From contig JAKALU010000008.1 of the NCBI GenBank assembly GCA_021824065.1, forward strand, positions 1 to 42,392: a stretch of DNA of 42,392 bases, given 5' to 3'. The DNA is from Nitrospirota bacterium. GTDB taxonomy: Bacteria > Nitrospirota > Thermodesulfovibrionia > Thermodesulfovibrionales > UBA1546. The position numbers and the translations under genes are program-made. The notes under the pieces are model-generated. The model did no database searches and had not been told where the DNA came from. It saw only the letters and a list, made by a program, of their open reading frames with translations. Positions 1,633 through 31,306 of the stretch are shown here, piece after piece (the stretch's first letter is position 1; every line of letters begins with the position of its first letter).

Positions 1633-1735
1633 TTAGTAATCTCCCCTCACCCCTCTTTAAAAAAGAGGGGATACAATTTTTAGAGAACACCTGAAAATCC
1701 CCCTTTTCTAAAGGGGGATGGGGGGATTACTAATC
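1633..1735. repeat. Palindromic repeat element, C5/G5 family
   Basis: The gap between lpxA and lpxI holds two G/C-run hairpins: CCCCTC..TTT..GAGGGG (1641-1670) and CCCCCTTT..AAAGGGGG (1698-1718). The outer ends form an inverted repeat, TTAGTAATC against GATTACTAA. Similar C5/G5 hairpins occur inside larC (20190-20236) and inside the element at 30034-30197. It may cut transcription between the two lpx genes, but there is no clear T-tract. Confidence 0.7.
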
Positions 1736-6358: not shown

Positions 6359-6424
6359 TGTCATCCCTGCGAAAGCAGTGATCTATATTTTTGTTTCTGG
6401 ATTCCCGCTTACGCGAGAATGACA
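6359..6424. repeat. TGTCAT/ATGACA inverted-repeat element, copy 1
   Basis: A 66-bp element bounded by TGTCAT and ATGACA, with an inner CTGGATTCCCGCTT arm near its right end and a CCCTGCGAAAGCAG arm on the left. The right arm (6397-6424) is nearly identical to the one at 24720-24747. It lies between the FmdB-like gene and dapF. Confidence 0.75.
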
Positions 6425-7767: not shown

Positions 7768-7859
7768 AGGTCAGGGCATAGTATTTGAGCGGACCCTTTT
7801 GTCCCGATAGTCATCGGGGCGAGAATGAGCTAAAATACTATACCTGGCCTGTTTTTTTT
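7768..7859 (+). repeat. Long palindromic element with T-tract, copy 1 (also terminator)
   Basis: The left arm 7768-7790 and right arm 7829-7850 are near-perfect complements of about 22 bp, with a nested CCCGAT/ATCGGG hairpin inside. Eight T follow (7852-7859), so it should terminate amrS transcription. Inner blocks GTATTTGAGCGGA and CGAGAATGAGC recur, in reverse orientation, in the element at 30034-30197. This makes it a dispersed repeat and not just a terminator. Confidence 0.75.
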
Positions 7860-17300: not shown

Positions 17301-17323
17301 ATAAGATTGGATTTTTGTAAGTG

Positions 17324-17332
17324 TGATATATT
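17324..17332 (+). promoter_or_regulatory. Extended -10 box of the TMTC-like gene
   Basis: TGATATATT matches an extended -10 (TGN-TATATT). It ends 5 bases before the ATG at 17338, again with no Shine-Dalgarno. It is divergent from the promoter at 17271-17300. Confidence 0.5.
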
Positions 17333-17337
17333 ATTTC

Positions 17338-19302
17338 ATGGGCAAGGCATCAAAGAGGAAGAAAGCTAAAAAGAATACTGCCAACCCCCTTTTAGAAAAC
17401 AGGTTATTAGAATCAGCAGTGGTTTACTCTAAGGCAGGCCTGTTAAGCAGTTCTTTTATTCACATTATACTCATAGCCATAGTCGGTTTTCTTGTCTATT
17501 CAAACACATTTTCAGTGCCTTTTCATTTTGACGACAGGAATATCTTCAAAAATCCTATCGTTAAAAACTTTAACAATTCAGGATCTTCAAGCGCAGATAT
17601 ATATTCGAAGGATGTTTTTAAAAGCAGATATGCAGGGTATCTTACTTTTGCGTTAAACAAAAAAATTAACGGGCTGAATGTTTCAGGCTACCATGTTGTG
17701 AACCTCTCAATTCATATTGCTAATGCATTTTTGATTTATTTTCTTGTTATCCTGAGCTTTAGAACCCCTTATTTAATTAAGTCTTCGCTAAGAGAGCATT
17801 CTAAATATATTGCCTTATTTTCAAGTCTGTTTTTTTTATCCCATCCGGTGCAAACACAGGCGGTTACCTATATTGCTCAGAGGCTTGCGTCACTTGCGAC
17901 GATGTTTTATATCCTTTCTATTGTGAGTTATATCAAGTCAAGAGTTTCGACGCCATACGCTACACGCTACACGCTTTACGCTGTCTCTCTCGTCTCCGCT
18001 GTTCTTGCCATGAAGACAAAGGAGACAGCGTTTACTTTACCGGTTGCTATTACCCTTTATGAATTTATGTTCCTGGAAGGTAAGATTAAAAGGAGGCTTC
18101 TGTATCTTATTCCGCTTCTCTTTACCATGCTTATAATCCCGTTAACCTTCATAACGATAAATAAACCTGTTGGAGATCTAATAGGCGATGTGAGTGAGGC
18201 GACGAGGGTTCAGACTTCAATGTCGAGGTTTGATTACCTGTTCACTCAATTCAGAGTGGTGGTCACTTACCTGAGGCTGCTGTTTTTCCCGATAGACCAG
18301 AGGCTTGTTTATGACTATCCAATATATCATTCATTGCTTGTACCACAGGTGTATCTGCCATTTCTGTTTCTGTTGTCAATATTCGGCCTTGGAGTTTTTC
18401 TTTTTCGCCGCTCGAAGGTTTATGACCATGGGTTGCGGTTGATCTCTTTCGGGATATTCTGGTTTTTCATAACACTTTCGGTTGAATCGAGCATAATACC
18501 GATAGTTGATGTGATATTTGAACACAGAGTCTATTTGCCATCTGTCGGAGTTTCTTTTGCGATAATGTCAGGGATATTCTTATTGTCTGGAAGACTTAAG
18601 AGCAGGAAAACGCAGATAATCGCAGCCTCGTTTTTTATACTGTTGCAGATTATGTTTGCAATAGCTGCTTATGCACGGAATAATGTCTGGGGAAGCGAGA
18701 TAAGTTTATGGGAAGATGTGGTGAGGAAATCTCCTAAGAATGTAAGGGGACATAATAACCTTGGCGATGTTTACTGGGGCATAGGGTTAAACGATAAGGC
18801 CATAGAACAGTATGAGATTGCCATAAGAATAGACCCTGATTATGCAGGGGCGCATTATAATCTCGGTTATGCTTACAGGGCAAAAGGGCTAAACGATAAA
18901 GCCATAGAACAGTATGAGATTGCCATAAGAATAGACCCTGACAATGCAGATGCACATAATAATCTCGGCAGCGCTTACAGAGCTAAAGGCCTGACCGACA
19001 AGGCTATAGAGCATTACCGGCTTGCCTTAAGCATTAAGCCTGATTATGCTGGTGTGCATTATAATCTCGGTATTGCTTATGAAGTTAAGGGTTTAACTGA
19101 CAGAGCTATAGAGCATTACCAGCTTGCCATAAAGCTGGAGCCGGATTTTGCAGAGGCACACAATAATCTTGGAGAAATTTATCTTGGGAAAAAACTCATA
19201 GACAGGGCGCGCAGAGAATTCGAAATAGCATTACAAATAAACCCTGACCTTCACCAAGCCCGAAAGCGTCTTGACTATATAAATAAAATTCATTCTCTTT
19301 AA
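17338..19302 (+). CDS. Polytopic glycosyltransferase-like protein with C-terminal TPRs (TMTC-like)
   Basis: About 654 residues from the ATG at 17338. Residues 40-450 hold about ten membrane segments. The first external loop carries FHFDDRNIFKNP, the acidic motif seen in TMTC and related GT-C glycosyltransferases that use lipid-linked sugars. The last 190 residues are five regular 34-residue TPRs (NLGxxYxxKGLxDKAIEqYxxAIxIxPD). A short ATRYTLYA stretch near residue 205 comes from an ACGCTACACGCT DNA repeat. The family glycosylates or modifies envelope proteins; the target is unknown. The transcript is probably leaderless. Confidence 0.8.
   Translation: MGKASKRKKAKKNTANPLLENRLLESAVVYSKAGLLSSSFIHIILIAIVGFLVYSNTFSVPFHFDDRNIFKNPIVKNFNNSGSSSADIYSKDVFKSRYAGYLTFALNKKINGLNVSGYHVVNLSIHIANAFLIYFLVILSFRTPYLIKSSLREHSKYIALFSSLFFLSHPVQTQAVTYIAQRLASLATMFYILSIVSYIKSRVSTPYATRYTLYAVSLVSAVLAMKTKETAFTLPVAITLYEFMFLEGKIKRRLLYLIPLLFTMLIIPLTFITINKPVGDLIGDVSEATRVQTSMSRFDYLFTQFRVVVTYLRLLFFPIDQRLVYDYPIYHSLLVPQVYLPFLFLLSIFGLGVFLFRRSKVYDHGLRLISFGIFWFFITLSVESSIIPIVDVIFEHRVYLPSVGVSFAIMSGIFLLSGRLKSRKTQIIAASFFILLQIMFAIAAYARNNVWGSEISLWEDVVRKSPKNVRGHNNLGDVYWGIGLNDKAIEQYEIAIRIDPDYAGAHYNLGYAYRAKGLNDKAIEQYEIAIRIDPDNADAHNNLGSAYRAKGLTDKAIEHYRLALSIKPDYAGVHYNLGIAYEVKGLTDRAIEHYQLAIKLEPDFAEAHNNLGEIYLGKKLIDRARREFEIALQINPDLHQARKRLDYINKIHSL
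18789..18941 (+). repeat. Near-identical 102-bp tandem repeat inside TPR region
   Basis: A stretch of about 51 bases starting AAACGATAA at 18789 is repeated at 18891 with only one or two changes, encoding two nearly identical TPR units. The flanking TPRs are more diverged, so this duplication is recent or kept uniform by recombination. Confidence 0.75.
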
Positions 19303-19448: not shown

Positions 19449-20681
19449 TTGAAGATAACATATTTTGACTGCTCTTCCGGCATAAGCGGTGATATGTGCC
19501 TTGGTGCGCTTGTTGATGCAGGTGTCTCTATAAAGAAGTTAGAAAGTGAACTCAGAAAGATCCCGATAAGAGGCTATAAACTCAAAGCTAAAAAAGTTAA
19601 ACGTGCAGGATTAAGGGCGACAAAAGTTGATGTAGTTCAGAAGTCAGAAGTCAGAAGTCAGAAGTCAGAAGCAAAGAAGTGGCAAGATATCGAGAAGATA
19701 ATAAAATTTTCTTCTTTATCAGATGAGATTAAACAGAAAGGGCTCAGAATTTTCAGAAGGCTTTTTAGTGCCGAGGCAAAGGTTCACGGCGAAAGATTCA
19801 ACAAAGTCCATCTCCACGAACTCGGTGCGGTTGATTGCATAGTGGATATCTTAGGAACAATCATCGGACTTGAAATTTTAGGGATAAAAAGAGTTTATGT
19901 GTCTCCTGTAAATATCGGGGGCGGTTCTGTTAAGACAGAGCATGGCATCCTGCCTGTGCCTGCTCCTGCAACTGCAGAGATTCTCAGGGCACAGAACACA
20001 GAGCACAGAACACAGGTTTATTCTGATGGAACAGATTTTGAGTTAACAACTCCAACAGGTGCAGCAATATTAAGAGAGTTATCATCTAATTTTGGGAATA
20101 TGCCTGATATGGTTGTTGAAAAGATTGGGATTGGAGCAGGCTCGAAAGATTTTAAGGACAGACCGAATGTATTGAGAATTTTTATTGGTAATCCCCCCAT
20201 CCCCCCTTTAGAAAAGGGGGGTAAAGGGGGATTTGAAAAAGAATTCCCAGAACAAAAGGTCACAGTAATCGAAACAAACATAGATGACATGAACCCCCAG
20301 GCATATGAATATGTGATGGATAGATTATTTAAGGGAGGCGCTCTTGATGTCTATCTCACACAGGTAATAATGAAGAAAAGCAGGCCAGGGATAAAACTCA
20401 CCGTGCTTTGCAGCAATAAAGCAAGAGAAGACATCGTGAAGATAATCTTTGAGGAGACAACCACAATAGGTCTGAGGTTTTATGAGGCAGACAGAAGAAC
20501 TCTAAAAAGGGAGATAAAAGAGCTTGGCACAGCATTAGGCAGGATGCGGTTTAAAATTTCAAAACTTGGAAATAAAATTATAAAGGTAACCCCTGAATAT
20601 GAGGACTGTAAAAGGCTTGCCAGAAAATTGAACATGCCATTAATAGAGGTGATCAAAAGAGTATCTTCCGGAAACCCATAG
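19449..20681 (+). CDS. larC: Nickel-pincer cofactor (Ni-PTTMN) insertion enzyme LarC, with in-frame repeat inserts
   Basis: A 410-residue single-chain LarC (DUF111), the CTP-dependent cyclometallase that puts nickel into the lactate-racemase pincer cofactor. YFDCSSGISGDMCLGALVDAG, VHLHELGAVDCIVDI and PVPAPATAEIL are N-terminal hallmarks; ETNIDDMNPQ opens the C-terminal domain. In Lactobacillus the two parts are joined by a programmed frameshift; here they are in one frame. It starts at TTG, with AAAGGA upstream. Three repeat-derived inserts are visible: residues 64-74, 180-189 and 248-262, the last at the domain linker. larB and larE are not in the window, so the cofactor's client is unknown. 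Confidence 0.93.
   Translation: MKITYFDCSSGISGDMCLGALVDAGVSIKKLESELRKIPIRGYKLKAKKVKRAGLRATKVDVVQKSEVRSQKSEAKKWQDIEKIIKFSSLSDEIKQKGLRIFRRLFSAEAKVHGERFNKVHLHELGAVDCIVDILGTIIGLEILGIKRVYVSPVNIGGGSVKTEHGILPVPAPATAEILRAQNTEHRTQVYSDGTDFELTTPTGAAILRELSSNFGNMPDMVVEKIGIGAGSKDFKDRPNVLRIFIGNPPIPPLEKGGKGGFEKEFPEQKVTVIETNIDDMNPQAYEYVMDRLFKGGALDVYLTQVIMKKSRPGIKLTVLCSNKAREDIVKIIFEETTTIGLRFYEADRRTLKREIKELGTALGRMRFKISKLGNKIIKVTPEYEDCKRLARKLNMPLIEVIKRVSSGNP
19638..19672 (+). repeat. Five tandem CAGAAGT heptamers inside larC
   Basis: Four copies of CAGAAGT and one CAGAAGC. Since 7 is not a multiple of 3, three units encode a seven-residue repeat, giving QKSEVRSQKSE. Confidence 0.9.
19989..20015 (+). repeat. CACAGAACACAGAG tandem repeat inside larC
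   Basis: Degenerate ACAGAACACAGAGC units encode AQNTEHRTQ in a variable loop of LarC. Confidence 0.65.
20190..20236 (+). repeat. C5/G5 palindromic repeat inserted in larC
   Basis: CCCCCCTTTAGAAAAGGGGGG and flanking GGTAATCCCCC match the intergenic element at 1633-1735. Translated in frame it gives NPPIPPLEKGGKGGF, residues 248-262, at the linker between the two LarC domains. Confidence 0.8.
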
Positions 20682-24639: not shown

Positions 24640-24747
24640 TGTCATTCCGCACTTGATGCGGAATCCAGTTCCTTAGAGTTATCTGCAAATATCTTTATAT
24701 AAATCGTTCCATATCCCCTCTGGATTCCCGCTTTTGCGAGAATGACA
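24640..24747. repeat. TGTCAT/ATGACA inverted-repeat element, copy 2
   Basis: A 108-bp element bounded by TGTCATTCC and GAGAATGACA, lying between argD and argF. It has a left TGCGGAATCCAG arm and a right TGGATTCCCGCTTTTGCG arm. The right arm differs from copy 1 (6359-6424) by about two bases in 28. Confidence 0.8.
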
Positions 24748-30033: not shown

Positions 30034-30197
30034 ATTAATCCAGATACAGCATTTTCGCTCATTCTCGGTCGCCGAGGCGACCCCCGAGGGCTTTTACCTC
30101 TTATACCCCCTAAATCCCCCCTTGCCAAGGGGGGACTGAGGGGGGTGTCGTCTGAATATCGGCAAAAGAATCCGCTCAAATACTGTATCTGGATTAA
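30034..30197. repeat. Long palindromic element, copy 2, with nested C5/G5 hairpin
   Basis: The ends ATTAATCCAGATACAGC and its complement (30181-30197) form a 21-bp inverted repeat with one mismatch. Just inside lie GCTCATTCTCG on the left and CAAAAGAATCCGCTCAAA on the right. Both blocks also occur, in reverse orientation, in the element at 7768-7850. The middle contains a CCGAGG-rich hairpin and a CCCCCCTTG..CAAGGGGGG hairpin of the C5/G5 family, as if one repeat had inserted into another. Confidence 0.75.
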
Positions 30198-31306
30198 TCT
30201 TCCTGCTTCCTTACCGAACTTATCTTGAGCCTTCCATCTTCTATTATGAAATCAGCATAAAGTCGCTGCGAGAGTATTTTTGCCTCTGTCTTTTTCTTTG
30301 ACAGCAACTCCATTTCCCACGTTATGAGGCCCCTTGCCCTGCCCGGTTCTATTTTCACTTCATTGATTTTGTATTTTAGAGCCTTGAAGTCAAATCTCTT
30401 CCATTGTTCCAGCTGGTTTTCCTTCTTCCCCTCCATCTCGAGATAACTCTTTGAATACCGTGATTCCCAGAGACTCAGATTCTTATCCAGATTTGCCCTT
30501 CGTATGTCTTCAAGCAGATCAATTATGTCTTTTTCCTTAATTATGAATTTCCCCGCACGAACCTCTAAGGTCGAGGCTGTTTTAGGAGGAACCCTTTGAA
30601 CCTTTTTGCTGAAGATATACCATGACACTAAAAGCGATAGCATGATTGAAAGCACAACGATTGTAAGAATCCTGCTGAGCCTTAACAACTTAAGATAATC
30701 CGGGGACTTTTTACCTGTTAGAACATCCATCAGAGTTGTTTTTGTTTTTAACTCTGAGGAAAGCATCCTGTAATATCTGCCGTTCTCACTCAGAAGCTCA
30801 AAGATGCCCGGCTTTTTGATATCATTAATCCTGTAATCGAGGTCCGAGATATCCGCCTCGATTTTTTTCTTCAGGTTATCAAGTATTGATTCGATTTTTT
30901 TAATCCTGGTTGTAATCTCCTCGATGTCTTTTTCCTTTTCCTCTGCCTCTAACAGAAATGCAGATTGCTCCATCCCTGATTTCCTGTTCTTCAATTCGCT
31001 TAATGCTTTCTCTTTCTGTGACATCCTCTTTCTAAGCTGGTTCATCTCATGAAGAACGGTAGAAACAAACTTGTTTTCGATATCTGCCTTAAGCGTGTCT
31101 ATCTTTACATCTTCAATCTTTTCGCTGCTGACGGGGGTTTCGTCAGCAGATAATCTATCGGTACTCTTCTCAGTGGTTGCAGTCTCCTGCTCTTCAATTT
31201 CTATTGGCTCAAGCATGGCTGAACAGGATTCGCAATAACTTAAATCAACAGGGTATTCCCTTTTACATTTCGGGCACTGCATTATGATTTTAGGTGTTTG
31301 TTCCAT
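30194..31306 (-). CDS. Zinc-ribbon, coiled-coil, single-TM protein
   Basis: 370 residues. An N-terminal zinc ribbon (CPKCKREYPVDLSYCESC) is followed by an acidic linker, a long coiled coil (about 85-165), one membrane helix (about 215-237, VVLSIMLSLLVSWYIF) and a C-terminal domain. That last domain (LSLWESRYSKSYLEMEGKKEN onward) resembles the NTF2-like/SnoaL fold found after TPRs in envelope proteins. The zinc ribbon should be cytoplasmic and the C-terminal domain periplasmic. Its ATG lies 3 bases after the stop of the lipoprotein gene, without a clear Shine-Dalgarno, so it is coupled to it. Function unknown. Confidence 0.7.
   Translation of the reverse strand: MEQTPKIIMQCPKCKREYPVDLSYCESCSAMLEPIEIEEQETATTEKSTDRLSADETPVSSEKIEDVKIDTLKADIENKFVSTVLHEMNQLRKRMSQKEKALSELKNRKSGMEQSAFLLEAEEKEKDIEEITTRIKKIESILDNLKKKIEADISDLDYRINDIKKPGIFELLSENGRYYRMLSSELKTKTTLMDVLTGKKSPDYLKLLRLSRILTIVVLSIMLSLLVSWYIFSKKVQRVPPKTASTLEVRAGKFIIKEKDIIDLLEDIRRANLDKNLSLWESRYSKSYLEMEGKKENQLEQWKRFDFKALKYKINEVKIEPGRARGLITWEMELLSKKKTEAKILSQRLYADFIIEDGRLKISSVRKQED

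Follow-up and report, generated by a model that had tools for sequence, protein, structure and literature searches.

The larC gene and its repeat segments

The window analysed here (the whole stretch of 42,392 nucleotides, positions 1 to 42,392 of contig JAKALU010000008.1, assembly GCA_021824065.1) belongs to a Nitrospirota bacterium whose genome is a draft of 2.73 Mb in 211 contigs. It carries larC, encoding a nickel pincer cofactor biosynthesis protein of 410 amino acids (aa), and this gene contains three segments of repeat DNA that are all in frame and read through (Table 1). Two of them (sites 1 and 2) are tandem arrays with a period of seven nucleotides, called heptamer arrays below, and the third (site 3) is a small palindromic element made of C and G runs (the C/G palindrome).

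The LarC product scores above the cut-offs of NCBIfam TIGR00299 and NF052512, Pfam PF01969 (Ni_insertion) spans residues 5-401 (487 bits) and PDB entry 12bi matches over almost the full length (E 3.7e-81). The models for the two halves, LarC1 (residues 77-246; 209.5 bits, cut-off 90) and LarC2 (residues 271-388; 160.7 bits, cut-off 50), both match within the same open reading frame (ORF). Judged from these matches, the gene is complete and both LarC domains are present. Its relatives, with identities of up to 70%, are named as Nitrospirae or Thermodesulfovibrionales bins.

A preliminary description of this DNA reported three unrelated repeats in larC. Its coordinates and residue numbers for the segments are correct, and the 410-codon ORF is single and intact. 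Three segments are indeed present, but sites 1 and 2 are both heptamer arrays with differing units and there are therefore two kinds of repeat in LarC, not three. Similarly, site 2 lies where it had been located but is an array of CACAGAA/CACAGAG, and there is no ACAGAACACAG repeat as such. The third segment was described as falling in the linker between the LarC halves, and it does so: its residues, 248-262, lie between the end of the LarC1 model and the start of the LarC2 model. In Lactobacillus, a frameshift is found at this junction; a figure legend simply names larC1 and larC2 as separate genes.

Table 1. Coordinates of larC, its repeat segments and other repeats in the window
Feature	Position	Strand	Basis or remark
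larC, nickel pincer cofactor biosynthesis protein, 410 aa	19449..20681	+	TTG start as listed; one intact ORF
Site 1: period-7 array TCAGAAG x 5.0, 100% match; predicted peptide KSEVRSQKSE, about residues 64-74	19637..19671	+	tandem-repeat scan
Site 2: period-7 array CACAGAA/CACAGAG; predicted peptide AQNTEHRTQ, about residues 180-189	19985..20015	+	period-7 and period-14 rows
Site 3: 45-nt C/G palindromic element AATCCCCCCATCCCCCCTTTAGAAAAGGGGGGTAAAGGGGGATTT; predicted peptide NPPIPPLEKGGKGGF, residues 248-262	20190..20234	+	exactly 15 codons
Intergenic C/G palindrome copy, between ORFs 795-1604 and 1747-2526	1699..1725	.	repeat search
Intergenic related palindrome (CCCCTCTTT...AAAGAGGGG variant)	1643..1670	.	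repeat search
Intergenic C/G palindrome copy	30116..30145	.	repeat search
Period-7 array ACGCTAC, 2.7 copies, within TPR-repeat gene 17323-19302 upstream of larC	17957..17975	+	tandem-repeat scan

The segments are predicted to lie in loops. In the AlphaFold2 model (run on 45 LarC sequences; mean predicted local distance difference test score, pLDDT, 87) all three sites are mainly coil, with confidence dropping locally: the two blocks of residues 61-80 at site 1 have pLDDT values of 72 and 71, residues 181-190 at site 2 average 67 and residues 251-268 at site 3 fall below 50. Elsewhere in the protein, just two ten-residue blocks score 75 or less, namely 121-130 (75) and the C-terminus (71). All three segments also coincide with gaps in the alignment with 12bi.

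Repeats at the same loops in related genomes

Recurrence was counted in 80 LarC genes, comprising 79 of the 80 named loci (the partial locus L104 was excluded) and the window. Fourteen other windows per gene (1120 in total) and lags of 6 and 8 served as controls. Period-7 arrays were found at sites 1, 2 and 3 in 19, 2 and 10 of the 80 genes, respectively, compared with 2 of the 1120 control windows; a lag of 6 gave 1, 0 and 1 genes and a lag of 8 gave none at any site. The LarC loops are therefore recurrent places for repeat DNA. Palindrome-like matches (C4..G4) occurred in 2, 0 and 5 genes at the three sites (one of the five, L077, is doubtful) and in 5/1120 controls. In the 80 LarC neighbourhoods, period 7 accounts for 33 tandem rows and the runner-up, period 14, for 13.

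A given loop carries different repeat units in different species. When the DNA of 16 LarC genes is aligned, the array at site 1 is seen to be built of CAGAAGT in the source genome (G000), CAGCTCT in G005, G009 and G011, CAGCAGT-like units in G006 and G001, CAAGGGG in G004, CAAAGTT-like units in G008 and CACAGAG in G025; the remaining genomes have decayed or irregular sequence and G012 has a C/G palindrome. This loop also varies in length in LarC proteins free of repeats and is not clearly longer in the source genome, so the term 'insertion' does not fit: site 1 is a loop filled by repeat and not clearly lengthened. At site 2, nine of the 16 genes have a short turn (ELLKGIPVYS-like) and seven have an array, and peptide has therefore really been gained (the arrays of G005 and G008 are broken up by another small element). 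At site 3, the C/G palindrome is found in G000, G002, G012 and G087, and period-7 arrays in G004, G005, G009, G011 and G025, among others; the source segment exceeds the length found in most relatives. The preliminary description had proposed that repeats enter coding DNA and add peptide to protein loops. This stands in that both kinds lie in frame in loops, with peptide gained at site 2 and a longer site 3, but site 1 shows no clear lengthening. In the orthologue alignment, the three segments were not found conserved in LarC proteins lacking the repeats.

Small palindromic elements of other kinds, such as CCTGCCTACCGGACAGGCAGG and GTAGGGGCG..CGCCCCTAC, lie within or adjoining heptamer arrays in L043 (site 1), L052 (site 3), L009 and L018 (site 2) and L019 (site 3).

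As the source is a fragmented draft of 211 contigs assembled as a metagenome bin, and repeats break assemblies, the segments might be thought an assembly artefact. The same loops bear repeats in many separately named assemblies, however, with their frames open, which makes an artefact extremely improbable. Occupation of the same three loops time and again might also mean that the segments are functional peptides selected for a role in LarC (for example, in a cofactor channel or an oligomer contact). Yet a single loop holds unrelated peptides in different species (SEVRSQK, LSALSSQ, SPPHPPLSKGG) or only a short turn, and the low AlphaFold confidence is that expected for disordered loops. We consider such a role very unlikely.

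Different repeats at one loop are not confined to LarC. For AroC, 12 loci were submitted; the motif could not be located in four, which were left out, and eight were compared: the loop contains a palindrome in G013 and G015, neither repeat in G003, and heptamers in the other five (TGCGGAA in G002, ATCCGAA in G005, ATCCGCA in G009, GGCAGAG in G011 and ATCAGAG-like in G000). The Ddl loop has GCTRTCA-like arrays in G001, G004, G006, G009, G010 and G011, ACGCTYA in G005, other arrays in G000 and G008, the C/G palindrome in G087 and other palindromes in G002 and G025; there is no clear array in G003, G012, G046 and G080. In HypD, the palindrome is present only in G009 and absent from 10 relatives, with a net gain of 30 nt.

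The Ddl of G002 (L336, L337) has a long in-frame loop, apparently composed of two further palindromic elements, which divides the protein match in two.

Within an array, identity at a lag of 7 exceeds the identity of the same columns between species: 0.93 versus 0.47 for LarC site 1 (eight species), 0.82 versus 0.48 for AroC (three species) and 0.91 versus 0.75 for Ddl (seven species). The strings compared were cut by eye from the alignments and the values are descriptive; they fit a turnover of the unit inside the array.

Heptamer arrays and the C/G palindrome beyond larC

A sample of 519,276 bases of the source genome (the window and 40 further stretches; array score cut-off at least 35) contains 43 period-7 tandem arrays, compared with 16 of period 8 and 19 of period 9, and none in an order-2 Markov control (one sequence of equal length). 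The heptamer units are of many different sequences with no single family. Mapping of the copies, as the preliminary description had suggested, places both kinds of repeat partly in genes: 17 of the 37 merged period-7 arrays in the sample lie inside called genes by a margin of 60 nt or more, and 23 of the 39 palindrome copies of the source genome lie in called genes. Three tandem copies of the site 1 unit (TCAGAAG x3) are present in 14/101 genomes, with no control match in any. The source genome has TCAGAAG at seven places; each of them overlaps a called gene and has TCAGAAG on the coding strand, the direction free of stops. Other in-gene period-7 arrays lie in proteins matching NrdJ, Ddl, DnaX, PriA, RecJ, PyrC (dihydroorotase) and Kdo transferase.

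Since LarC contains five perfect 7-nt units and seven is not a multiple of three, such arrays could be phase-variation switches, with LarC silenced by the frameshift that follows gain or loss of one unit. This is how neuO of Escherichia coli K1 behaves: its heptanucleotide array, AAGACTC, is translated and determines the frame through its number of copies (PMC13001214). The neuO array, as described there, is long, variable and located at the 5' end of one capsule gene, whereas the present arrays are short, internal and spread over many housekeeping genes. They lie in the middle of genes whose products match essential single-copy enzymes, for which OFF states should be lethal, and stops were found in none of the 30 LarC translations examined. 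Phase variation is accordingly a very unlikely explanation.

An inverted partner lies within 120 nt of 10 of the 26 intergenic arrays (control 2/156) but of only 3 of the 20 in-gene arrays (control 3/120). The intergenic partnership would suit hairpins or heptamers bound by protein, acting as regulatory sites in DNA or RNA and overlapping genes by chance. There is a precedent in Geobacter metallireducens, which has intragenic heptanucleotide elements and where heptanucleotide sets (MTYCTGA x5) are annotated as predicted sites of a global regulator (PMC2700814). The MTYCTGA consensus, one of several there, is the complement of TCAGRAK; the passages of that paper dealing with these elements mention neither loops nor unit turnover. 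In-gene arrays are seldom partnered, however, and units vary freely at one locus, and we regard chance overlap of regulatory sites with genes as highly improbable.

Intergenic heptamer arrays often form inverted pairs with the potential to fold into hairpins (L121 2957-2996, L133 4916-4986, L135 1414-1447, L138 7394-7425, L146 778-807 and L148 5854-5941). By eye, most heptamer units contain AGT/ACT when read cyclically, like the TAACTGA of Beggiatoaceae.

The C/G palindrome has a consensus of about 45 bp (AAT-C6-n3-C6-TTT-n3-AAA-G6-n3-G6-ATT). This was computed over both strands, which forces symmetry, and is therefore no evidence of a palindrome by itself; the individual copies, however, are palindromic and have the terminal inverted repeats of a miniature inverted-repeat transposable element. 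Two of its reading frames would give NPPxPPFxKGGxGG(F/I) and (I)PPxPPLxKGGxG. Its core, CCCCCTTTNNNAAAGGGGG, occurs in 23 copies in the source genome, 143 in G002, 109 in G087 and 54 in G012, and is found in 37/101 genomes, with no match to a reversed-pattern control in any of the 101. Among 39 genomes reached via named loci, 21 have the core, five of them labelled Syntrophaceae or Deltaproteobacteria (L097, L100, L105, L107, L109), and two match the reversed pattern. In this set, the core was not found in genomes labelled Aerophobetes, Zixibacteriota, Latescibacterota, Clostridia, Dehalococcoidia, Athalassotoga or Nitrospina/Nitrospinaceae.

In-gene palindromes of the source genome include those in PurL (three copies), LeuS and TsaD. 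The relative G087 has 57 of 79 copies in called genes. There, palindrome peptides coincide with alignment gaps in valyl-tRNA synthetase (against 1gax) and in a P-type ATPase (against its best PDB match). In G001, G006, G009 and G015, where loci were picked automatically, the palindrome lies in called genes at 19 of 20 loci. Loci L216-L227, a separate set, were selected because they bear the palindrome. The span from C run to G run is 3n+2 nt in 34 of the 40 measurable in-gene copies of G087, compared with 2 of 10 outside genes. Intergenic copies also exist in the window. The preliminary description noted the palindrome family between lpxA and lpxI, and two copies do lie between the ORFs in question (Table 1), which, following its naming and not a family search, we take to be lpxI (795-1604) and lpxA (1747-2526).

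Interpretation and comparison with known repeats

We think it likely that heptamer arrays maintained by slippage, together with a small dispersed palindromic element, persist where they are in frame in permissive loops. The three surface loops of LarC would tolerate almost any in-frame filler, and two processes at the DNA level in this Nitrospirota order would keep supplying it. In the first, period-7 arrays would persist at a site while the unit inside them turns over; replication slippage is the probable cause, and neighbouring species would thereby come to differ in the heptamer at the same loop. In the second, a palindromic mini-element of about 45 bp would be moved by some enzyme. Selection may then retain only the copies that lie in a loop, in frame and in a stop-free orientation. 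Each copy would have arisen independently and most would be neutral or nearly so, surviving where the protein tolerates them.

A number of observations weigh against this explanation. The G087 loci were hand-picked, several being already known in open frames, and the figure of 57/79 is biased upward. Palindromes are not enriched in genes in the source genome (23/39, compared with about 89% coding). The gene caller retains open frames, and any copy that breaks a frame would be counted as intergenic or edge; the finding that copies are always in frame is therefore partly built in. The in-gene spans of the source genome are mixed modulo 3 (eight 3n, six 3n+2 and one 3n+1). The palindrome in HypD of G009 is no clean insertion, as 45-48 nt replace up to 18 nt of the loop, and no target-site duplication is visible there in comparison with relatives that are at most 85% identical in protein. 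No mobiliser was found, and a link to RAYT is not supported: in a search for Y1_Tnp in 21 genomes and in 4 high-copy genomes, the core was near only 1 of 45 Y1 loci. Finally, co-localisation of palindromes with arrays is significant only inside G087 genes (6/57, random 43/5000), compared with 1/23 in source-genome genes and, outside genes, 1/22 in G087 (random 128/5000) and 0/16 in the source genome; a stricter proximity threshold leaves 3/57 and 0/23 in the genes of G087 and the source genome.

RAYT was accordingly rejected as a general mobiliser of the palindrome; scanning the first 30 Y1 loci for hairpins under looser criteria added one locus, L161. Heptamers as sequence targets for the palindrome were likewise rejected: the excess is confined to G087 genes, with none outside genes, and shared tolerant loops therefore fit better than targeting.

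A further possibility, which we put forward tentatively and consider rather doubtful, is that the loops of universal enzymes contain old, frame-neutral sockets in the form of heptamer arrays, which keep position and rough length while the unit is replaced in concert and which accept mini-palindromes. As 7 modulo 3 is 1, gain or loss of one or two units would restore the frame after any insertion. Two sets of cases are compatible with such sockets: the LarC genes of G005, G008, G025, L043, L052 and L054, in which mini-elements lie within or beside arrays, and the loops of LarC, AroC and Ddl that hold a palindrome in some genomes and an array in others.

Both in-frame palindromic repeats and bacterial heptanucleotide repeats are already known. 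Rickettsia palindromic elements are small palindromic repeats of about 150 bp, placed in frame in unrelated metabolic genes and giving a conserved peptide (PMC10969869). The C/G palindrome resembles them in being palindromic, in many copies and in frame in unrelated genes. It differs from their published description in its length of about 45 bp, its C6..C6..G6..G6 plan and its hosts (Nitrospirota and some genomes labelled Deltaproteobacteria or Syntrophaceae), and is not classed with them. Enterobacterial RU/ERIC elements (PMC2759123), compared by description only, are small mobile sequences that also become fused in frame to genes; they are larger (103-168 bp) and occur in another host. REP elements with RAYT transposases (PMC3733652), as described there, are likewise small dispersed palindromes, but the C/G palindrome has no consistent RAYT neighbour (the 1/45 loci above). 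Heptanucleotide repeats (LSSR, STRR and TAACTGA arrays) are reported as over-represented in many bacterial genomes (PMC4679880, PMC4692102), and the present arrays share this excess of 7-nt units over other unit lengths. TAACTGA arrays, in those accounts, contain stops and are mostly intergenic, whereas here many units are stop-free, 17/37 arrays are in genes and the unit at a given loop differs between species.

Literature searches, with subscription papers mostly outside their scope, gave no match for the peptides of the C/G palindrome (PPLSKGG, PPFSKGG, PPLEKGG, PPFTKGG, PPLVKGG, PPLAKGG) and nothing relevant among the matches listed for its DNA strings CCCCCTTT/AAAGGGGG. In the same literature, we found no prior description of universal enzymes in which both kinds of repeat recur at the same loops and the units differ by species. 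Small repeats of cyanobacteria were reportedly described by Elhai in 2008.

One enzyme loop filled by different repeats in different species amounts to an experiment that nature has repeated, and it may show how DNA that is selfish or arises by slippage turns into protein. It allows direct study of the tolerance of individual loops to insertion, the rate at which heptamer units turn over and the reason why bacteria favour a repeat length of seven. It also carries a warning for annotation. Peptides such as PPSPPFSKGGMGG in unrelated proteins reflect repeat DNA and not homology, and the LarC protein search returned many false relatives sharing repeat-encoded peptides.

Two minor features of the window may be added. 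The intergenic palindrome at 30116-30145 is flanked by 32-nt inverted arms (30034-30065 and 30167-30198, 84% complementary), with a related copy at 7820-7847, and may form part of a composite element. A 29-nt dispersed repeat (TCTGGATTCCCGCTT..GCGAGAATGACA) occurs at 6396-6424 and 24719-24747, 93% identical and in direct orientation.
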